Of a stretch of DNA of 64,000 nt, positions 53,952 to 64,000 are shown in pieces. This DNA is from an uncultured Bacteroidales bacterium. GTDB taxonomy: Bacteria > Bacteroidota > Bacteroidia > Bacteroidales > UBA932. Positions within the stretch are counted from its first letter, which is position 1, and every line of letters starts with the position of its first letter. Under the pieces are notes generated by a model. That model had not been told where the DNA came from. It made no database searches and saw only the letters and a program-made list of their open reading frames with translations. The translations under genes were made by a program, and so were the position numbers. The stretch spans positions 1-64,000 of the forward strand of contig CALVDL010000002.1 in NCBI GenBank assembly GCA_944326305.1. Direction: 5' to 3'.

Positions 53952-53960
53952 CACCGGAAT

Positions 53961-54031
53961 TGAGATATGGTGTAATGGTAGCACTACAGATTTTGGTTCT
54001 GTCTGTCCAAGTTCGAATCTTGGTATCTCAA
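53961..54031 (+). tRNA. tRNA-Gln (anticodon TTG)
   Basis: A 71-nt cloverleaf: acceptor TGAGATA paired with TATCTCA, anticodon stem ACAGA/TCTGT with loop TTTTGGT (anticodon TTG), and T arm CCAAG-TTCGAAT-CTTGG. No CCA is encoded. It borders the prophage integrase and is the likely attachment site. Confidence 0.95.
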
Positions 54032-54181
54032 CAAAAGTCGTCTAAATCTTTGGAAGATAGCGATTTAGGCGATTTTTTATATAATACCGGGTCAGAAACG
54101 GGACAGCCCCCGGAAGGCCCTAAGTCTAACAGATTTTTTTCTTTGTATGACACTATTACGGAGTTGTGCAAAGAAAAAAAA

Positions 54182-55339
54182 ATGTGTCTTTTCAAACCTA
54201 CGGCAGGGCTTGAATATATACCTGCCAAACTCTCCCAAGGCATCGAGTGGTATGTCTACTTCTATGTGACAGATCCGGTCTCCGGCACACTACGCCGCAT
54301 CCGTATGAAGATCAACAGGATCAAGAACAAACGGGAAAGACTTCGTGTCGCCAGGCAGATGATAAACGCCCTTAATGAGAGACTTGCTCTCGGCTGGAAC
54401 CCTCTGGTGGAGAAAGTAGCTCCGAAAGCTGATACGGACATTTTCGATGCTTTCGAATCATTTCTTGCTGCCAAGAAAAAGACAGCGGAATCCAACAGTT
54501 ACAGGTGCTATGTTTCTTTTATAGGAACCATGAAGAAGTGGATGGCGTCCAGAAGCAGCTGCAAAGGGCGCTTCCCTGTCATGTCGTTTACTCACCAGCT
54601 GGCTGTCGAGCTCATGCGTGATGTCGATGCGAACGATAAGATATCCGCTCAGACATACAATAACTATCTGCGTTTTTTCGTCATGCTGTTCAACTGGATG
54701 AAGGAGAAGGGCTATATCCCGGAGAATCCGTTCGAGGGCATAAAACGGAAAAGCAAACGTCTGATAAAGAAGAAACGCCGCATGATGACAGATGCCGAGA
54801 TGGCAAGGCTTACCGGCTTCCTGAAAGAGAATAATCCGAATTATCTCGCCCTGTGTCTGATGTGTTACTGCTGCTTCATGAGGCCCAAAGAGATTGCTTT
54901 GCTCAGATGTGAGGACATTGATCTGAAAAAACAAACAGTTCACATAAGGGCAGAAATTGCAAAGAATGACAATGATTCATATCGGACCATACCTGATGAT
55001 ATGATGCCATACATTAAAGCCCTTGACCTTTCTGATCCGAAAGCCTATGTGTTTTCTGACAGCCCGGACTTTACTTTCAGATCTGGAAGGAAGAAAGTTT
55101 TGACACAGTATATAGCGAGATATTGGAGCGATGTCATCCGTCCGGCCTGCAGCTTCCCTATGGAACTCCAGTTCTACAGTCTAAAGGATACCGGCATCAC
55201 TAATATGCTGGGCAGCGGCATTCCGGTCTCATTTGTAAAGCAGCAGGCGGACCATCACAGTCTGGCTATGACTTCCATGTACCTTGGGCAAGTCCGGGAG
55301 GCAAATGATGCACTAAAACAGAGTCATATTATAAAATAG
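54182..55339 (+). CDS. int: Phage tyrosine recombinase (integrase)
   Basis: The 385-residue protein has an Arm-type N-terminal region, a core-binding segment (about residues 95-190), and a catalytic domain. Catalytic positions seen are Arg in CFMRPKEIALL, the LKDTGITNML box that replaces HxLRH, the His pair in QADHHSLAMTS, and the terminal Tyr in TSMYLGQ. The ATG at 54182 is preferred; the frame is open back into the tRNA but that part has no integrase-like content. It should insert the phage into tRNA-Gln. Confidence 0.9.
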   Translation: MCLFKPTAGLEYIPAKLSQGIEWYVYFYVTDPVSGTLRRIRMKINRIKNKRERLRVARQMINALNERLALGWNPLVEKVAPKADTDIFDAFESFLAAKKKTAESNSYRCYVSFIGTMKKWMASRSSCKGRFPVMSFTHQLAVELMRDVDANDKISAQTYNNYLRFFVMLFNWMKEKGYIPENPFEGIKRKSKRLIKKKRRMMTDAEMARLTGFLKENNPNYLALCLMCYCCFMRPKEIALLRCEDIDLKKQTVHIRAEIAKNDNDSYRTIPDDMMPYIKALDLSDPKAYVFSDSPDFTFRSGRKKVLTQYIARYWSDVIRPACSFPMELQFYSLKDTGITNMLGSGIPVSFVKQQADHHSLAMTSMYLGQVREANDALKQSHIIK

Positions 55340-55386
55340 TGGAAAATATTCCTATTTTATTTTGTAATAATGGAAAATATTCCTAT
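55340..55386 (+). promoter_or_regulatory. Double GGAAAATATTCC operator-like repeats before hicA
   Basis: TGGAAAATATTCCTAT occurs twice, 31 bp apart (55340-55355 and 55371-55386). Each carries a GGAA...TTCC quasi-palindrome. The second copy overlaps the -7 box TATATTTG (55384-55391). This is the layout expected for an autoregulatory HicB operator. Confidence 0.6.
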
Positions 55387-55391
55387 ATTTG
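55384..55391 (+). promoter_or_regulatory. -7 promoter box (TATATTTG) for hicAB
   Basis: TAnnTTTG match 25 bp before the hicA ATG at 55417. Confidence 0.6.
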
Positions 55392-55416
55392 TATCGTCAA
55401 ACAAATCAGAAGTTCT

Positions 55417-55593
55417 ATGAAATCAAGTGAATTTCACCGGTTCATCCAGATTAACGGATGGAGGGAAGTGAGGCAGGCCGGGAGCCACATAATTTATGAA
55501 AAGGCCGGCAGACAGATTACGGTTCCTTACCATGGAAGCAAGGAAATGAAAAAAGGTCTGGTATTGAAAATCAAAAAAGAAATGGGGCTGTAA
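55417..55593 (+). CDS. hicA: HicA family mRNA interferase toxin
   Basis: The 58-residue protein is a small basic double-stranded-RNA-binding-like domain with the HicA pattern GSHIIYEKAGRQITVPYHG, where the His is catalytic. It cleaves mRNA when not bound by HicB. The start is the ATG at 55417; upstream in-frame codons are AT-rich promoter DNA. hicB follows after 28 bp. Confidence 0.9.
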   Translation: MKSSEFHRFIQINGWREVRQAGSHIIYEKAGRQITVPYHGSKEMKKGLVLKIKKEMGL

Positions 55594-55621
55594 GCCCCTT
55601 TCTTTTAAAACATATGAAGTT

Positions 55622-56032
55622 ATGGAAAAAGTAAAGGTTATTATTGACAGGTCCAAAGACGGTACATACAATGTGTACTGTGAAGATACACCGTCATTCT
55701 TCGGAATGGGGGACACTATAGAAGAGGCAAAATCGGAAATGCTTGAAACTATAAGGATCACTAAGGAGGAAATCGGCAAAGAGCATTCTGCCGTCTGGCC
55801 AAGCTGGATGGATACGGAATATGAATTCGAATATAAGTTTGATGTCCAGGGGCTTCTTGAATATTACGCCGGGATTATAACTCCTACAGCACTCGGCAAG
55901 CTTGCCGGCATAAATACAAAACAGATGTGGAATTATATGCATGGTGTCGCCAAACCGCGCAAAGCGCAGATAGAGAAGATCGAGACCGCTCTGCATAGAC
56001 TCGGCCATGAACTTATAAATACCTCTTTCTGA
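55622..56032 (+). CDS. hicB: HicB family antitoxin with C-terminal helix-turn-helix
   Basis: The 136-residue antitoxin has an N-terminal HicB fold (residues 1-~65, DGTYNVYCEDTPSFFGMGDT) that masks HicA. A C-terminal HTH-type DNA-binding segment (~85-130, TPTALGKLAGINTKQMWNYMHG) should bind the repeats upstream. It lies in the prophage just left of the lysis genes and may act in phage maintenance. Confidence 0.9.
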   Translation: MEKVKVIIDRSKDGTYNVYCEDTPSFFGMGDTIEEAKSEMLETIRITKEEIGKEHSAVWPSWMDTEYEFEYKFDVQGLLEYYAGIITPTALGKLAGINTKQMWNYMHGVAKPRKAQIEKIETALHRLGHELINTSF

Positions 56033-56060
56033 TTTGTTTGACAGCTTTCTTAAAGAGGAA

Positions 56061-56092
56061 GGGGCATCCGGTGACGGGTGCTCCTGTTTTGT
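56061..56092 (+). terminator. Terminator after hicB
   Basis: Arms GGGGCATCC and GGGTGCTCC form a 9-bp stem with two G-T pairs, followed by TGTTTTGT. About 30 bp after the hicB stop. Confidence 0.65.
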
Positions 56093-56094
56093 CT

Positions 56095-56119
56095 AAAGTT
56101 GCCTAAATACGGCAACTTT
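56095..56119 (-). terminator. Terminator at end of the phage late operon
   Basis: Perfect arms AAAGTTGCC and GGCAACTTT with a 7-base loop, next to A/T-rich DNA. It lies between the convergent hicB and spanin genes and could serve both. Confidence 0.65.
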
Positions 56120-56127
56120 ATTTTCAA

Positions 56128-56589
56128 TCATCTTCGGATGAATCTGATTAGTAAAAAAATCAGTATTCCAGCCAAAGTGATCCTTCCCAGCACCATTGAG
56201 AATGACTGCCAGGCCGTCAGATCCCTCGGGACGGTCACGGTATTGGTCTGGATGCGGATGGCATATCCCTTTTCTGAATGAAGTCTGGTCGGGAGTTTAA
56301 CATTGACCGGCAACAGCGGCTCAGACTTGTTCTGCAGTGTATGGAATAAGGTACCATTGTCAATCCAAGCTGCAGATCTGGCGATGCTTGTTTCCAGGAC
56401 GGATGTGTCATTATCCGGCAGCCTGGCTTCAGAAGACTCCTGGGGAAGTTGTACCATTATGATACTGTCCCGGAATATGATGGAATCGCGGATAATGACC
56501 GCTGTGGAATCAGTTGTGGCGACTATGTGTCTTGTTGCTGTGCATCCGATAAAAAGGACACTGACAAAACTAAATAACAAAACCTTCAT
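56128..56589 (-). CDS. Putative unimolecular spanin (u-spanin)
   Basis: The 153-residue protein carries a lipoprotein signal (LFSFVSVLFIGC) and a C-terminal membrane helix (GRITLAGILIFLLIRFIRR), with a polar linker between. A lipidated N-terminus and a C-terminal membrane segment are the hallmark of u-spanins, which fuse or disrupt the inner and outer membranes at the end of lysis. It is the third gene of the lysis set (holin, amidase, spanin). No sequence family is recognised. Confidence 0.65.
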   Translation of the reverse strand: MKVLLFSFVSVLFIGCTATRHIVATTDSTAVIIRDSIIFRDSIIMVQLPQESSEARLPDNDTSVLETSIARSAAWIDNGTLFHTLQNKSEPLLPVNVKLPTRLHSEKGYAIRIQTNTVTVPRDLTAWQSFSMVLGRITLAGILIFLLIRFIRR

Positions 56590-56601
56590 AGATTGGAATG
56601 A

Positions 56602-57219
56602 TTAAAAATAAGGATTGTACTTTGCAGTCCCGTCAATTAGAGACTTGATAGTTTTATAATGTATTAACGCACATCGATCACGGCCTTCCCGGGTCATCAG
56701 GAAACGGCAGTCTTTCTTAGTGTCAATAAAAAAGTTCTCGCTCAAGACAGCCGGGCATTTCGTGTGTTTCAATATATAGAACTGACTCTCCTTGTCCGGA
56801 TCTCCGTCGCTATAATCGCTGCGGATCTTCCAGCCATCCGGAGCGAATTCCAGTTCCGCCTGTCTGGCAAGTTCGCTTGCAATCAGATCGGCTTCTGTCT
56901 GCCCGACGCTGGTATAACATTCCCAGCCGGTCCCGCCTCCGGCATTGGCATGGATACTGAATAAAACAGCCGATTCGTATTTATCGTAAAGCTCATTTGC
57001 TCGGCCGCATCTGTCAGGCAAGGGGATATCCTTTTGCTCCGGAACCAGTATAAAATGCCTGATGCCGTCCGCTTTCAATAACAGGCTGATTCTCCTGACG
57101 ACGTCCCGGTTGAATTCATATTCAAATAACTGTGATCCATCCGGCCACACCGGAGACCGTTTTCCTGGAGTATCGGAACCATGCCCATTATCCAGGATAG
57201 GAATAATATTCTGTTTCAT
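56602..57219 (-). CDS. Phage N-acetylmuramoyl-L-alanine amidase (endolysin)
   Basis: The 205-residue enzyme is an Amidase_3-type zinc hydrolase. The metal-site motifs are DNGHGSDTPGKRS, EYEFNRDVVRR, SIHANAGGGTGW and ENFFIDTK. It cleaves the bond between MurNAc and the peptide stem, opening the cell wall after holin action. Its start overlaps the holin stop by 4 bases, showing translational coupling. No signal peptide. Confidence 0.9.
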   Translation of the reverse strand: MKQNIIPILDNGHGSDTPGKRSPVWPDGSQLFEYEFNRDVVRRISLLLKADGIRHFILVPEQKDIPLPDRCGRANELYDKYESAVLFSIHANAGGGTGWECYTSVGQTEADLIASELARQAELEFAPDGWKIRSDYSDGDPDKESQFYILKHTKCPAVLSENFFIDTKKDCRFLMTREGRDRCALIHYKTIKSLIDGTAKYNPYF

Positions 57220-57671
57220 CTGGTTGTCTCCTGTTTTCCTGATTTTATCAATGTTATGATCTTTCTCGCATCCTTTTCATCGGCACAGCTTATGATCTTA
57301 TCCACCATGTCAATGATACCAGCCGCAGAGCTGCGTTTTTTCTTAAGATTTTCAATAACGCTCTTGCCTTCAATGAGCAGTACGCCCAGCGTTACCAGTA
57401 CGCACGCATAGGGCAGTTCGTACCACGGGAAAAATATCCCGAGTATATCGATCAGGACGGCGAATATCACCACCCTGATATAATCGATAACTTTCCTGAC
57501 AGTCTTCCTTAACGAATGGCTGCGGATTCTCTCCTTGTTTGTCCTGGCGGCATCGATCCCTGTCCACATGTCAATGAGGGCAGCCACAACAACCAGCACG
57601 CAACAGACAAAAATTATTGTAATGCCGCGCATGACATCCTGTGTAACGTATGACTCTATCATTTCCATCAT
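57216..57671 (-). CDS. Phage holin
   Basis: The 151-residue protein has two to three hydrophobic helices (about residues 16-38, 64-82 and 86-102) and a charged C-terminal tail (RKIITLIKSGKQETTR). The SLRKTVRKVIDYIRVVIF segment suggests the Bacteroidetes phage_holin_4 type family. It would open the inner membrane and release the amidase. Start overlaps the stop of the small upstream ORF (ATGA) and its end overlaps the endolysin. Confidence 0.85.
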   Translation of the reverse strand: MMEMIESYVTQDVMRGITIIFVCCVLVVVAALIDMWTGIDAARTNKERIRSHSLRKTVRKVIDYIRVVIFAVLIDILGIFFPWYELPYACVLVTLGVLLIEGKSVIENLKKKRSSAAGIIDMVDKIISCADEKDARKIITLIKSGKQETTR

Positions 57672-57814
57672 TTTAAATACAACATTATCTTTACTCCTGA
57701 TTCATATTCTTCTATTACGACTAACCAGTATTTTGCAAGCTCCTGTATAAGGGCTACATCAATATCCGGCAATATCAACACCGATTCAGGTTGTCCCGCA
57801 TTATCTGATCCCAT
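57668..57814 (-). CDS. 48-residue ORF between reverse transcriptase and holin
   Basis: The ORF MGSDNAGQPE...VKIMLYLK starts inside the last codons of the reverse transcriptase gene (57801-57814) and its TGA overlaps the holin ATG, making a chain of overlapping starts and stops. The product is acidic with an amphipathic C-terminal segment (LIQELAKYWLVVIEEY). It has no signal peptide. The tight overlaps argue that it is translated, but I recognise no family. Confidence 0.5.
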   Translation of the reverse strand: MGSDNAGQPESVLILPDIDVALIQELAKYWLVVIEEYESGVKIMLYLK

Positions 57815-58985
57815 CCTGTATCCTTTGTAATGTCACTGTTCGTTTACGGTATTTTTTCTTGATGGCCACTACCTCGTAGTGACCTCTGATATAAATCCAC
57901 TCAAAACAATGGATATCTATTTGGCGAAGTATTTTCTTTCTTATATTATATTCATTCCCATGCCTGAGAAAACCCAGGTAGCTATTAATGCTACATACAG
58001 CATGTTCTATTTCCTCTATATTTCCGGCTTTGTTCAGCCTGAGCACGGCTTTGACGAAATTTGACACCGTCCGGCTTCCTGCATATTTCCGATTACATTT
58101 TATTACGCTGCCGGTAAAGGCTACTCCCTTTGTATAGTGCTGGAAATAAAACTTTGTGGGGCTTAGCTTCAGACCGTATCCTGCCAACAGTTTCCTGATT
58201 TTCGGAACAGCCTCCAACAGCCTACCCTTATCTGCATCTATGATATACAGATCATCAACATATCTGCCCGTATAAACGAAACCCATATCTTTCAGTATAT
58301 ACCAATCCAGAACGTTCAACAGAAAATTGGCAAAGAGTTGGGCCCAAAGATTACCTATTGCAACGCCTTTATTCTCGCCGTTGGTAAACAATGATTTGTT
58401 TGTGGGCAAATGTGTCCAATAGCTTGTCGGGCTATGCCGTTCGCAATTCTGCTCGGGTGCATGCAGTACTACGGTTCCGCACAGATACCGCAAGTCATCA
58501 ATATCTTCTCCTTTATAATATCGGCGAATAAAAGCATCAATCATCTTTGCCAGCATTAATCTGTCTATAGACATGAAAAAGCTCTGCAGGTCCAGTTTCA
58601 TGATATAGCAGTCTTGTGTGTAATTGTCGCTACATACCCTTATATCATTATAAAGCATTTCGGCTCCGAACATCTGCCCCTTACCCTTTCTGCAGTTGAA
58701 AGTCCGCGGACTGAAAACACTTTCAAACAAAGGTTCAAGCCGCAAGGATATCAGATGATGTACTATCCTATCTTCAAAAGCAGCAGCAAATACCTCTCGA
58801 TAACGGGGACGAGGAACGACAAAACAGATAGATTTGCCTGGCAAATATGTTCGGTTGTTTATGCGATTCTTAAGGGCAATAAGCTTGCTCTCATAATCCA
58901 ATTCATAAGTCACTGCGCTAGCAGTTCTTCTCTTTTTGCGCCGGCAATCATAATATGCCTCCAACATATCTTCAGTAGTCATCAT
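57801..58985 (-). CDS. DGR reverse transcriptase
   Basis: The 394-residue protein is a group II-intron-like reverse transcriptase of the diversity-generating retroelement type. Motif positions, counted from the ATG at 58985, are KLDLQSFFMSID (130-141), IGNLWAQ (210-216), and the catalytic YVDD (242-245). The IGNLxxQ motif is the DGR form of the usual QGxxxSP. It has no maturase or endonuclease domain. It would copy the TR RNA with adenine-directed errors. The ATG at 58985 is used; the frame stays open through the template repeat upstream. Confidence 0.9.
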   Translation of the reverse strand: MMTTEDMLEAYYDCRRKKRRTASAVTYELDYESKLIALKNRINNRTYLPGKSICFVVPRPRYREVFAAAFEDRIVHHLISLRLEPLFESVFSPRTFNCRKGKGQMFGAEMLYNDIRVCSDNYTQDCYIMKLDLQSFFMSIDRLMLAKMIDAFIRRYYKGEDIDDLRYLCGTVVLHAPEQNCERHSPTSYWTHLPTNKSLFTNGENKGVAIGNLWAQLFANFLLNVLDWYILKDMGFVYTGRYVDDLYIIDADKGRLLEAVPKIRKLLAGYGLKLSPTKFYFQHYTKGVAFTGSVIKCNRKYAGSRTVSNFVKAVLRLNKAGNIEEIEHAVCSINSYLGFLRHGNEYNIRKKILRQIDIHCFEWIYIRGHYEVVAIKKKYRKRTVTLQRIQDGIR

Positions 58986-59012
58986 TCCGCATATTTTGGT
59001 GATCTGTAAAAG

Positions 59013-59118
59013 TGCCGAAACCGGCCTGATCCTGCCCTGGTTCGACGCCTTAGTGTTCCAGTTGTTCGCGTTGCCATTTGACAAGTTGAGATTCCAGGCG
59101 TTCGTCGAACTGGCCTCA
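59013..59118 (-). repeat. DGR template repeat (TR)
   Basis: A 106-base copy of the 3' end of the target gene, located between avd and the reverse transcriptase. On the coding strand it is rich in AAC/AAT codons at the positions that vary in the VR. The block at 59014-59040 is identical to VR, and the rest differs only at adenines of this strand. Confidence 0.95.
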
Positions 59119-59205
59119 CAACCGTGTACCACTTTACCTTACGGTCTTAACTATAAATGATAGTAGTGGTCCATTTTTACAGATAACTTGCTCTCCCGGT
59201 CAACC

Positions 59206-59616
59206 TTAGTCTCCCGGTTCAGGCATATACTCGTTATCCTTCTTGTCGTCAATTTTCAATAATGAGTTCTTCCATGCGGTAGATTGTTTGCCGATTGTGT
59301 CCATTATCTCGATGATATCTGCATGTCTGCCTCTTCCTTGAATCCATTTTCTTTCACCGGCAATCCGTATAAGCAATTTCAGGACCTCAAAGTCCGACTG
59401 GAAATCTATCAGATGTTGTATTCTGATGCACCTGTCTTTATTTATATAAGCTGCAGATATCTCTTTTATAAGAGATACCCCAAGTTCGTGCATCTTGCTC
59501 CCGATACTGAATTTAAACGACCGTGGAAAATTAATTGTAATATCCAATATTGCATCCATTAATCTTCTGCAGTCCAGGTATATCTGAGTGTTTGCTACCA
59601 GTTTTGATTTCTTCAT
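59206..59616 (-). CDS. avd: DGR accessory variability determinant (Avd)
   Basis: The 136-residue protein is nearly all helical, with the layout of the four-helix-bundle Avd/23S intervening-sequence family (LVANTQIYLDCRRLMDAILD, then MHELGVSLIKEISAAYI). Avd forms a pentamer, binds RT and the TR RNA and is required for mutagenic homing. Location between target and RT is typical. The C-terminal tail is charged (KIDDKKDNEYMPEPGD). Confidence 0.87.
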   Translation of the reverse strand: MKKSKLVANTQIYLDCRRLMDAILDITINFPRSFKFSIGSKMHELGVSLIKEISAAYINKDRCIRIQHLIDFQSDFEVLKLLIRIAGERKWIQGRGRHADIIEIMDTIGKQSTAWKNSLLKIDDKKDNEYMPEPGD

Positions 59617-59640
59617 TGATTATACGTTTGGTGTGGAAAA

Positions 59641-59666
59641 GTCAGCGCGGATCAAACCGCGCTGAC
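59641..59666 (-). other. Hairpin/cruciform element downstream of VR
   Basis: Perfect 10-bp arms GTCAGCGCGG and CCGCGCTGAC with a 6-base loop, 33 bp beyond the VR. DGRs such as that of Bordetella phage BPP-1 use a similar hairpin near the 3' end of the variable region. On the minus strand it is followed by TTTT, so it might also act as a terminator for the target gene. Confidence 0.75.
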
Positions 59667-59687
59667 AAAAAGATTAACTACTGACCG

Positions 59688-60449
59688 TTAATTTAAAAAT
59701 GCCGAAACCGGCCTGATCCTGCCCTGGCGCGACGCCTTAGCGCCCCAGGTGCCCGCGTCGCCATCGGACAAGCCGAGATACCAGGCGTCCGCCGAACTGG
59801 CCTCAGTGCTTGTCCAATACCAGTTTTCCTGAAGTTGAGCGGCACCATTGATAAGAGACAATGCATGATTAATCTTTTTCATATTGGCGAAGATCATCAT
59901 CATTTCGCCTAAAGATGGCAACCACCATCGCCCGGCCGTCAGACCTTTCCCGTTGGCATTTACTCTGGAATATGCTGCGCAGAACCCCGGAGCGTAACTT
60001 TCGGTATTGCATTCCGGGTGAGTAATCTGAGCCGCAGTGCTTGACTTTCCGGCCCAATCGTTTAATGCCGTCAGCCTATCGCTTGTAGTCGTCCCTTCGC
60101 CAGCTACAGCTGCGCTACTCCAAGTTAAAGTGGCTTCTGTAGGAGATACAACCAGCATCTTACCCCCTTCTACTATCATTACTCCTTCAGCTATTTCGCC
60201 ACTGTTTTGATAGCCGGTCCATTGGTCTGGTCTTACAGCCAGCGGATAATCATCACTGTTCCTGTGAAACATCACGAACACTCCATCCTCGATGGCATTC
60301 AGGTCTGTTCCGCCAAGCATCGCCGACTTGAGGTCGGATAATTTGATTTTTGTTATACCTCCGTTCCCGTCTGTCAGTATCAGGAACTGTGAAGCGTCCA
60401 TGGTAACAACCGACGGGACGCTTGCCAATGTTTTTGTCTTTTTTGCCAT
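59688..60449 (-). CDS. DGR target protein with C-type-lectin-like domain
   Basis: The 253-residue protein has an N-terminal segment (to about 100) and a C-terminal lectin-type fold (about 120-253) with GRWWLPSLGEMMMIFANM and WYWTSTEASS. The variable repeat forms residues 216-250. Eleven codons there differ from the template, at positions 220, 221, 224, 226, 229, 231, 233, 234, 236, 237 and 241. This domain is the binding face of DGR targets, so it likely contacts a host receptor or another ligand. It ends the tail-gene cluster, implying a tail or tip protein. Confidence 0.93.
   Translation of the reverse strand: MAKKTKTLASVPSVVTMDASQFLILTDGNGGITKIKLSDLKSAMLGGTDLNAIEDGVFVMFHRNSDDYPLAVRPDQWTGYQNSGEIAEGVMIVEGGKMLVVSPTEATLTWSSAAVAGEGTTTSDRLTALNDWAGKSSTAAQITHPECNTESYAPGFCAAYSRVNANGKGLTAGRWWLPSLGEMMMIFANMKKINHALSLINGAAQLQENWYWTSTEASSADAWYLGLSDGDAGTWGAKASRQGRIRPVSAFLN
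59700..59805 (-). repeat. DGR variable repeat (VR)
   Basis: The 3' part of the target gene, aligned one-to-one with the TR at an offset of 687 bases. Sixteen mismatches, all at adenines of the TR coding strand. The invariant 27-base block at its 3' end (59701-59727) is the candidate initiation site of mutagenic homing. Confidence 0.95.
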
Positions 60450-60462
60450 AATGCTAATTTAT

Positions 60463-61233
60463 TTACATATCACTGCGAATAGTCTGATATAACCATAGCG
60501 TACCTCCGCCGTTATTATATCCTATAAGTTCATACCACCCCACAAGTACGATGGAAGTTTCCTGGTCACGAAAATAGTCGCCACTCTCTGACAAAAAGCG
60601 GTCAGCCGGACTTTCTCCTGTTAATGTCATTGGCATATAGGTCTTTGTGATTTGTGGATTAAAAACCACGACTCGCATAAATTCCCCTTCGGCCAAACTT
60701 GGCAACACGCAAGAACCTGAACCATATACAAACGAACAGCCCAGTTTTCCGTCGGTAACGACGTTAGCCTTGTATCTCAGCTGTGCGACGGTAAGATTGC
60801 CCGTTACGGATACATCTTCGAAGTCTCCGGTCCTGCAAGTAACTTTTCCGTCTTTGGCTTGAAACAGTACTTTACCGCTGCTGTCTTTCATCTCGATGGC
60901 GGTAACGCCAAGATTTTCCACCAGCGCATAAGTGGCCAGCAGTATTTTTGTTGCCACCAGTTCGATTTTGTCGCCAAGCTGCCAGTAGCCGTTATTCCGA
61001 TCGGTCGTGCTGCCGGGGTAATTGGAAGCAGTTTTGGCATGCGACTTCTTGCAGCTGTAGTAGTTGCCGTTATATAAAACTACATCTTTCCATTCGTCTC
61101 CGGAGACCCCGGCCTGGAAAGCATAGCCCACGATGCAGTCGCTCCACGCCTGCGGGCCGCGCAGTGTCGCTCCCCGTTCTCCCTTCTCTCCCTGCTTAAG
61201 GAATTTAACCACTTGTGTTCGGGTAGTACTCAT
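60463..61233 (-). CDS. Phage tail-fibre-like protein with a short collagen-like stretch
   Basis: The 256-residue protein starts with a collagen-like run (GEKGERGATLRGPQ), then a carbohydrate-binding-like segment with aromatic residues (GDEWKDVVLYNGNYYSCKKSH, YWQLGDKIEL), then beta-strand-rich sequence. This layout is common in phage tail fibres. It begins 5 bp after the upstream gene, and the target gene follows after 13 bp, so it belongs to the same operon. The ATG at 61233 is preferred to an in-frame TTG two codons earlier. Confidence 0.72.
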   Translation of the reverse strand: MSTTRTQVVKFLKQGEKGERGATLRGPQAWSDCIVGYAFQAGVSGDEWKDVVLYNGNYYSCKKSHAKTASNYPGSTTDRNNGYWQLGDKIELVATKILLATYALVENLGVTAIEMKDSSGKVLFQAKDGKVTCRTGDFEDVSVTGNLTVAQLRYKANVVTDGKLGCSFVYGSGSCVLPSLAEGEFMRVVVFNPQITKTYMPMTLTGESPADRFLSESGDYFRDQETSIVLVGWYELIGYNNGGGTLWLYQTIRSDM

Positions 61234-61235
61234 AA

Positions 61236-62279
61236 TCAATCAACGCTTGTTATTGTCACCGAGACATCACCTCCTGCCTGCTGGCAGTGGGCGCGTGTCA
61301 CGGTCTGGCTCGCTTTCGGAACATCGCGGTCGGTGTTCAGATACACGCCTGCCGCGTCTTTCAGTACGAAATAGAACTGCGTATCCAGAGCTTTTGTCCC
61401 TGTCCCGCGTTTCACTACCACCGGAGTATATGTCACCTCGCCGTTGCCTGTAGAATCCTCGGTAATGGTTTCGTCCTCTGGAATTGGATGCGGATCTATA
61501 TCATACGGATCGCTGGCATCCATCACACTCTGGATATCCGTACCTATTTCAGAGCCCGATCTATAGACATGCACCCTATATTCTCCATAAGTATCTATAT
61601 CAGCTGCGCTTACTGTAAGAGTCTGGCTTGTCTTTCCTGAAAGTTCCGTCCATCCGGTAGCGCCCATCTTCTCCCATTTGTATGTCAGGTTCTGGGAAAG
61701 GGCATTGCCGCTCTGGTATGCCATGGCCTTTAGTATACAGCTGCCGGACTTGTCTGTGATTACGAAATTCTTCGAGTCCCCTGCGGCAATGGTTACCCGA
61801 TAGCTGCTTCCTGTCGCCTGCTGGACAGGTATGGTATAGCTTGCCTGAATGCTATCGCTTTGGGTACCGTAGCTGACAGTGGCCACCATCTTGATCACAG
61901 CCGGTGCATATCCGGCCAAATCGACTATATTTTTCAATATCTGCAGACCATAATACAACTGGTCGCCGCTCGGTGCTACTGTCTTGAAATACCCGGCAAA
62001 TGTACCTGTAGAAACACCGCCGCTAAATGAAATCTTCTGGTCGTTGAAATAGTATTCCATCGCATCCGGATCAGCTACGCCCTCTGCCACCCGGCTGCTG
62101 GTACAGACGAAATACAGTATAGGTTTCAGTGTGGAAAAGTCGGGATATATAGCCGTGACATCGTCCTGCGTACCTTCGTATTCCTGGTAGACATCACCGT
62201 TCGGCGACATGATCACCGCTGTATATGTGCCAGCCTTGCTGATGAATTTGATTGTCCTGCTCGTGCTTGCCGTACTCAT
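61236..62279 (-). CDS. Phage tail/baseplate protein with Ig-like domain
   Basis: The 347-residue protein is rich in beta strands. A stretch near residues 160-245 (NLTYKWEKMGATGWTELSGK, SQTLTVSAADIDTYGEYRVHV) has the Trp and Tyr spacing of an Ig-like domain. No catalytic motif. The start overlaps the upstream 120-residue gene by 4 bases. The function is structural by context only. Confidence 0.7.
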   Translation of the reverse strand: MSTASTSRTIKFISKAGTYTAVIMSPNGDVYQEYEGTQDDVTAIYPDFSTLKPILYFVCTSSRVAEGVADPDAMEYYFNDQKISFSGGVSTGTFAGYFKTVAPSGDQLYYGLQILKNIVDLAGYAPAVIKMVATVSYGTQSDSIQASYTIPVQQATGSSYRVTIAAGDSKNFVITDKSGSCILKAMAYQSGNALSQNLTYKWEKMGATGWTELSGKTSQTLTVSAADIDTYGEYRVHVYRSGSEIGTDIQSVMDASDPYDIDPHPIPEDETITEDSTGNGEVTYTPVVVKRGTGTKALDTQFYFVLKDAAGVYLNTDRDVPKASQTVTRAHCQQAGGDVSVTITSVD

Positions 62280-62638
62280 GACATCTCCTCCATATTTTCT
62301 GCTTCATCGGCAGATGACTCTTCCTGTTCAGGAATTTCAATGTCAGTCATCGGATCATCCTCATGTTCCGGGGCAGGGCCGGATTCAATCACAAATCTGG
62401 GATCTGCAGCAACAGGTAATTCTCTGGAGACAGTCCCGTCCTGTTCTTCCCTGGCTTCATGTGCTCTCAAGGCAATTGCGCCGATCTGTATAAGTATCTG
62501 GGGAAGATCCGTCAATCGTCCGAAGGCGAGCATGTCCGCCTGCCACAATAGGTAATTTCCGTCCTTTACCACATTCCTGTCGTTGTCAAGATTCAGGAAC
62601 CTGGCTACTTTGGGATTTGCTTTAATGTAAAGTGCCAT
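62276..62638 (-). CDS. Phage protein of unknown function
   Basis: The 120-residue protein has a conserved-looking N-terminal part (ALYIKANPKVARFLNLDND) and an acidic, low-complexity C-terminus (PEHEDDPMTDIEIPEQEESS). No family recognised. Translationally coupled to the downstream Ig-like gene. Confidence 0.65.
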   Translation of the reverse strand: MALYIKANPKVARFLNLDNDRNVVKDGNYLLWQADMLAFGRLTDLPQILIQIGAIALRAHEAREEQDGTVSRELPVAADPRFVIESGPAPEHEDDPMTDIEIPEQEESSADEAENMEEMS

Positions 62639-62648
62639 TGTCAAATAT

Positions 62649-63800
62649 TTAATGGATTATCAATATTGAACCGTCTGAATCACATATAACCGCACCATCT
62701 GAATCTGTCATCGCTCCGGCATATCCCCTGTCAATAACATCCAGTCCAATTACGGCTCCGTAATTATCGTCCATTCCGGTCGTATCAAGAATCGGAGACA
62801 TTCCATGCGCGGCCAAAGCATAGCTGAGACTGCCTGACGCCTTATTGGTTGCTATATACCACAACGGCAACAGTTCTGTCTCTGGATTGCTTATCTCGCC
62901 ATTGGCGGTACGAATGACTGCCGAAGGATTTATTCTAAGTATACCGGGAGGGATATTGTACGGGACTCCTGATATCTCAAACTCATACTTCGGTATCCTC
63001 CTGATAAAAGACACTATTGCCTGTGGGGACGAATCGCCCAGCGCTACAGAACCGGGATTGCCGGAGGAACTGTATCGGCATCTGCAGCGAACGGATGCCG
63101 AGTTCCCCATAAGCCACCTGTCTATTGTTATGCTGTCGCCGTTGACCGTAACATCATAATCCAGTACCGGATCAGTACCTGCCTCATGCCATGCTCCGTC
63201 TTCACCCATAATTTCCCAACAAAGGGAATATTTGCTTGAAGGGCATACCGTATCGCCAAGCCAGACCTTGGCGGTTACTGTCTGGTTCCGCTGATCGGTA
63301 AGAGGGTTATATATCGTCTGGTCGGAAGCATCCAGTTCAATTCTGACCAGACTCGACGCACTTGAACACGTGATAAGATAACTACCTTGAATAATAAGCA
63401 CCTGTCCGTTTCGGGAATCAACGTACTCGGCATAGAATTCCAGCGTTACAGGGACTTTCGGCTCCACATTCCGTTTGACCTTGATTCTTCCTGCATTCCC
63501 TCCGCTTGTAGTAATTTCATAATCTGGATTTGATGTGCTGATCACCGTCGAATTACCGTCGATATTTTCCTTCCATCTTACATTTGTCAGAGCCTGATTT
63601 ATACGGCCGGAGGCCAATGCGCCGTCTTTATCCAGGATGGAGACTGTAGGTTGGATAATCAGCGGAGTAATGGTATAGTCTGGAGTATATTCAGCGGTAT
63701 CCGCATTGTAATTCTGTGCAGAAGGAACACTGCCTTCTGTCGAAAAGGATATCTGCAGCTGCAGTGGTTTCCAGTTGAAATCAAATCTCCTTGTCTTCAT
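62649..63800 (-). CDS. Phage tail protein with Ig-like repeats
   Basis: The 383-residue protein is beta-rich, with probable Ig-like repeats in the middle (for example QTVTAKVWLGDTVCPSSKYSLC, SVRCRCRYSSSGNPGS). The C-terminal 40 residues have an unusual repeat of Asp-containing loops (TDSDGAVICDSDGSILIIH). Likely a tail or baseplate structural protein by context. Confidence 0.68.
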   Translation of the reverse strand: MKTRRFDFNWKPLQLQISFSTEGSVPSAQNYNADTAEYTPDYTITPLIIQPTVSILDKDGALASGRINQALTNVRWKENIDGNSTVISTSNPDYEITTSGGNAGRIKVKRNVEPKVPVTLEFYAEYVDSRNGQVLIIQGSYLITCSSASSLVRIELDASDQTIYNPLTDQRNQTVTAKVWLGDTVCPSSKYSLCWEIMGEDGAWHEAGTDPVLDYDVTVNGDSITIDRWLMGNSASVRCRCRYSSSGNPGSVALGDSSPQAIVSFIRRIPKYEFEISGVPYNIPPGILRINPSAVIRTANGEISNPETELLPLWYIATNKASGSLSYALAAHGMSPILDTTGMDDNYGAVIGLDVIDRGYAGAMTDSDGAVICDSDGSILIIH

Positions 63801-63813
63801 CTTTTCTGTTGTT

Positions 63814-64000
63814 TTAATATTGGAAAACGGCTGCAGCCGTATTTGCCGCTTCTCCCATCCCGTCTCTCAATGTGACAGTGGCAGTAAATTTCAGCACCTT
63901 GGGGATATAGCCGTTAAAATCGCAGTCATCTGTAGTCAGGTCAATGGATTTCCCCTCATCTGCCCTTTTCAGCGCCCATGCCTGGTCTGAAGCCACACGC
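63814..64000 (-). CDS. Phage protein, C-terminal part only
   Basis: The reading frame continues past the right edge of the window, so only about 62 residues are visible. They contain TATVTLRDGMGEAANTAAAVFQY. No family can be assigned. It belongs to the same leftward operon. Confidence 0.6.
   Translation of the reverse strand, partial: RVASDQAWALKRADEGKSIDLTTDDCDFNGYIPKVLKFTATVTLRDGMGEAANTAAAVFQY

Follow-up and report, generated by a model that had tools for sequence, protein, structure and literature searches.

The window, that is, the whole stretch of 64,000 nucleotides that was analysed, very probably (about 0.96) contains a functional phage-borne diversity-generating retroelement (DGR) of the Bacuni type, in which adenine-specific copying of a template repeat (TR) rewrites the variable repeat (VR) of a predicted tail-tip adhesin. 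This reading is based on the anatomy of the cassette, on TR-VR differences that are confined to adenines apart from one C/T mismatch, and on a VR divergence at adenines only between two near-identical prophages.

Organization of the cassette and the prophage

The original prediction described a complete DGR. Target gene with VR, avd, TR and reverse transcriptase (RT) gene were all found at 60449-57801, on the minus strand and in that order. The target gene (59688-60449, minus strand) encodes a 253-aa Lcl_C/DUF1566-like protein, which is predicted to be a tail-tip adhesin from its matches to PF07603 and phrog_4245 and its homology to Bacuni F1. The match to PF07603 (Lcl_C) had an E-value of 7.4e-7 and 29.9 bits, under the curated cut-off of 34.9, and that to phrog_4245 an E-value of 3.8e-10. 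The AlphaFold model of the target was poor (mean pLDDT 37). When the target profile was compared with solved structures, HbP1 alone was obtained (E 0.005, across 42 residues), and this match was set aside. As regards a C-type lectin fold of the target, a Phyre2 match of its Bacuni homologue has been published (PMC8143477).

The VR (59694-59805, minus strand) encodes the C-terminal ~37 residues of the target and stops 6 nt short of the end of that ORF. The avd gene (accessory variability determinant; 59206-59616, minus strand) encodes a 136-aa protein that matches PF22296 (bAvd; 6.8e-27) and phrog_3206, and also NF033474 (1.3e-7, under the cut-off of that model). The TR (59007-59118, minus strand) was recognized as the partner of the VR: the two repeats are 112 nt each, lie 687 bp apart and are 85% identical. 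The TR is located ~20 nt before the start of the RT gene (57801-58985, minus strand; 394 aa). A longer RT ORF that begins at GTG 59132 was rejected; its extension merely reads through the TR. Because homologues align from the internal ATG at 58985, the RT gene likely spans 58985-57801.

The cassette was also claimed to lie between tail and lysis genes, and Pfam and PHROG matches together with Bacuni homology support the assignment of the tail genes, the holin and the amidase. Upstream of the target is a gene for a likely tail protein (60463-61239, minus strand), which is homologous to Bacuni F1 ORF48 (73% aa identity over 150 residues). Beyond it are three tail/baseplate genes (61236-63800, minus strand), homologues of Bacuni F1 49-51 with 66-86% aa identity, two of which match phrog_3267 (tail). 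Downstream of the RT gene are a holin-family gene (57216-57671, minus strand; PF05105, 2.5e-7) and a gene for N-acetylmuramoyl-L-alanine amidase (endolysin; 56602-57219, minus strand; PF01520, 5e-19; phrog_435). In agreement with the predicted tRNA-Gln integrase context, a tyrosine integrase gene (53960-55339, plus strand; PF00589, 1.2e-13) adjoins tRNA-Gln (53961-54032); the coordinates are those of the ORF from the first possible start, and the true start is inside it. The attL core is the last 15 nt of tRNA-Gln (54018-54032, plus strand). This 15-nt sequence is repeated at contig position 92382-92396, which gives a prophage size of ~38.4 kb. The prophage further encodes a tape-measure protein, an S49 peptidase, a DUF5906-like protein and an ORF6N protein. 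In its right part (contig 87681-89170), a tyrosine recombinase gene lies beside a 196-aa N6 methylase fragment, and this pair is possibly an invertible restriction-modification locus.

Substitution at adenines between the repeats and between two prophages

On the coding strand, 17 mismatches were found between TR and VR: A to G (12), A to C (3), A to T (1) and C to T (1). Thus, 16 of the 31 TR adenines are changed in the VR versus 1 of the 81 other bases (Fisher p = 4.6e-10). Nearly all altered adenines are at codon positions 1 and 2. Translated in the frame of the target, the TR reads EASSTNAWNLNLSNGNANNWNTKASNQGRIRPVSALL and the VR reads EASSADAWYLGLSDGDAGTWGAKASRQGRIRPVSAFL. The single C/T mismatch is near the 3′ end, at TR position 107, where the TR possesses C and the VRs of both prophages compared below, as well as both Bacuni F1 VRs, possess T. 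Such a conserved mismatch is expected when the 3′ IMH end is spared by cDNA integration. When the remaining 56 kb of the window (seven 8-kb blocks) were searched with an adenine-tolerant repeat scan, no comparable TR/VR pair was obtained. Furthermore, a whole-genome search yielded no further VR, and the same TR was not found in IMG/VR.

The variability of the VR was checked in related genomes. A near-identical prophage, also at tRNA-Gln, is present in the MAG contig JADILV010000009.1 of Candidatus Cryptobacteroides avicola (L034). Most host DNA is only 77-83% identical between the two genomes, and we therefore regard the hosts as different species. It should be mentioned that C. avicola DNA upstream of tRNA-Gln (L034:13164-14752) matches contig 92765-94358, beyond attR, in inverted orientation, which we take as a rearrangement between the species at the prophage site. 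Among genus and family genomes, the only further near-identical copy was a 14-kb stretch in G110, which is wholly inside L034, on a contig of equal length, and was therefore taken as the same record and not as independent; one independent near-identical copy therefore underlies the VR comparison.

Between the two prophages, the 3.7 kb with avd, TR, RT and lysis genes (56006-59693) contains 1 SNP, and the TR is identical. In contrast to this flanking region, the VRs differ at 14 positions (12.5% of sites), all 14 of which are TR adenines (p 1.1e-9). At the 81 non-adenine TR positions, no difference was observed. Because the VRs diverge only at adenines and the TR is identical, the simplest reading of the two sequences is that the DGR rewrote at least one VR from the common TR after the prophages split.

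Homologous recombination with a related phage, instead of retrohoming, might also make two VRs different. Exchange of this kind clearly occurred nearby: the patch 59907-60258 within the target gene contains 91 differences (about 26% divergence), with 51 codons changed synonymously and 21 non-synonymously, and recombination with a related phage is the best reading of it. Further divergent blocks are present at 54800-56005 (the integrase end) and from contig position 64800 on, and we read all these blocks, including the patch, as mosaic exchange. From 60259 to 64000, the two prophages do not differ. However, the 101 bases next to the VR (59806-59906) are identical and separate it from the patch, and the divergence of the patch does not follow the adenine rule. 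Because 0 of the 81 non-adenine positions differ, recombination is hard to invoke for the VR, and the donor would require the same TR. We therefore consider this explanation of the VR difference very unlikely.

For the preferred reading, rewriting of the VR by the DGR, we propose the following scheme. Transcription of the late operon would yield the TR RNA along with avd and RT. An RT-Avd complex would copy the TR RNA with errors at adenines, and the mutated cDNA would replace the VR at the 3′ terminus of the target gene, which lies upstream. As a result, many variants of the C-terminal binding face may be formed on the predicted tail-tip adhesin, and host recognition would probably be altered through these variants. 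In this scheme, we infer the copying mechanism, its timing in the late phase, the lectin fold, receptor binding and the change of tropism.

The inverted repeat after the VR

An inverted repeat (59641-59666, minus strand) lies 28 nt after the VR. It comprises a perfect 10-bp GC-rich stem and a 6-nt loop, TTTGAT. A 10-bp stem was reached in 3 of 2000 shuffles, and the DNA fold had a z-score of -4.9. A comparable inverted repeat was looked for after the TR and was not found. The repeat after the VR is likely the IMH-associated hairpin or cruciform, and possibly also a terminator.

The 4-nt GRNA loop that is common in phage DGRs is absent here. Guo et al. (2011) described phage DGR hairpins with 7-10 bp GC-rich stems and 4-nt GRNA loops, 4-34 bp from the VR, and in BPP-1 the activity was near background when the loop was altered or enlarged by 2 nt (PMC3240598). 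Deletion of the stem-loop in BPP-1, however, only impaired homing (PMC12875486). Thus, the GRNA-loop hairpin affects efficiency and does not define the DGR class. Bacuni F1, F2 and the other loci of the Bacuni cluster with a readable VR possess hairpins in which the stem is 8-9 bp long and the loop is GAAA or GGAA. The GRNA loop is missing in both the window prophage and the C. avicola prophage, and in locus G340 the loop is GTTA.

If the unusual loop is taken at face value by the BPP-1 rule, being wrong in both size and sequence, the DGR might be a decayed remnant whose VR was diversified long ago and is now static; the presence of a single target instead of two would fit this idea. We give it little credence. 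The avd and RT genes are intact open frames and the RT retains its catalytic motifs. Moreover, the VR is 12.5% different from that of a prophage with only 1 SNP in the 3.7 kb that flank it. Because the VR changed recently nonetheless, the TTTGAT hairpin either works with another loop or is dispensable here. As a tentative proposal, which may well prove wrong, the cassette may retrohome with the TTTGAT hairpin, in breach of the 4-nt GRNA rule, and loop recognition may have diverged in Cryptobacteroides phages.

Seven relatives within the genus (L005, L007, L008, L009, L010, L011 and L012) carry diverse other DGRs, with TR-VR mismatches that are A-only or A-biased. Where a hairpin exists after the VR in these DGRs, its loop is non-GRNA.

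Relation to Bacuni phages and other systems

The RT matches PF00078 (4.9e-16) and phrog_1423 (2.7e-78), and its best relative among solved structures is 8ub7, 'Reverse transcriptase' (7e-22). Both motifs named in the original prediction, IGNLWAQ and YVDD, are present. IGNLWAQ fits the [IVL]GxxxSQ type with S replaced by A, as in the loci L028, L029 and L033. In the phylogenetic tree, proposed as a check of the RT, the protein grouped with DGR RTs, in a cluster (support 100/99) that comprises the Bacuni phages and IMG/VR contigs. Of the two outcomes that were to refute the original prediction, an unvarying VR and an RT that falls with retrons or group II introns, neither was obtained. That the RT belongs to a group II intron or a retron and lies beside a chance repeat can practically be discarded: the NCBIfam matches that hint at this are weak and far under the cut-off, whereas IGNLWAQ in place of QGxxxSP, the RT tree, Avd and the adenine-biased TR/VR pair all speak against it. 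The QGxxxSP motif belongs to the group II intron RT of the same genome. With 336.8 bits against TIGR04416 (cut-off 300), this second RT of the contig (137690-138652) is assigned as a group II intron RT/maturase and is not part of the DGR. A 128-aa ORF of the same orientation comes after its 320-aa ORF, which stops early; the maturase is perhaps frameshifted.

DGRs of the same type were said to be known in gut Bacteroidales, and this is borne out by the Bacteroides uniformis phages Bacuni F1, F2 and F4 (MT635598, MT806186 and MT806185), which were isolated by Hedzet et al. (2021; PMC8143477). These authors reported the same cassette with two targets, differences concentrated in the VR between phages that differ in host range, and related prophages in Bacteroides and Prevotella too (PMC8143477). 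The order tail genes, target (DUF1566), avd, TR, RT, small gene and amidase is common to the Bacuni phages and the window. The aa identities are 66-70% for RT (66% with F1), 73% for Avd and 70% for the target, and five neighbouring tail genes match those of Bacuni F1 at 66-86%. Between Bacuni F1 and F4, 18 of 23 differences over 11 kb fall in the VR. In all loci of the Bacuni cluster with a readable VR, and in G340, the TR-VR mismatches are A-only or nearly so. The TR-VR spacing is also similar (704 in Bacuni versus 687 here). The systems differ in the hairpin loop (4-nt GAAA versus 6-nt TTTGAT) and in the host genus (Bacteroides versus Cryptobacteroides). Bacuni F1 possesses a second, remote target (L050:22548-23222), the VR of which also shows adenine changes relative to the F1 TR, whereas no second target was found in the genome of the window.

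Because BLASTP of the prophage proteins against Bacuni F1 gave no match beyond the tail-tip region, head, packaging and replication genes included, we view the prophage as a mosaic that is not a member of the Bacuni phage genus. Phages with the same cassette have already been isolated and published (PMC8143477).

The DGR of Bordetella phage BPP-1 (mtd/avd/TR/brt) is similar in gene order, strand logic, adenine mutagenesis and the 3′-terminal position of the VR in its target gene; a hairpin after the VR, an endolysin gene downstream of brt and a tRNA attachment site are also shared. In contrast, the RTs are only distantly related, the BPP-1 target is Mtd and not an Lcl_C/DUF1566-like protein, and in the BPP-1 record the TR is 144 nt before the RT start, versus ~20 nt here. 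Bacteroides dorei Hankyphage p00 is likewise a temperate gut Bacteroidales phage with a DGR (Benler et al. 2018, PMC6199706). Hankyphage is described as transposable (PMC12135933), and by this description it is set apart from the prophage with its tRNA-Gln tyrosine integrase. A literature search for Cryptobacteroides and DGR gave a rumen virome paper.

Thus, the Bacuni-type cassette itself is already known; the host genus is new, and the locus clearly demonstrates natural activity of such a cassette. With this finding, the range of Bacuni-type DGR cassettes includes Cryptobacteroides, a gut genus that has been little studied, and the TTTGAT hairpin offers a chance to test how widely the GRNA loop rule applies. 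Furthermore, the near-identical prophages in two host species are a clean natural experiment, in which the cassette differs at TR adenines of the VR, at one SNP and in one recombined patch. This result fits, but does not prove, the idea that variation of the tail tip accompanies movement between hosts.
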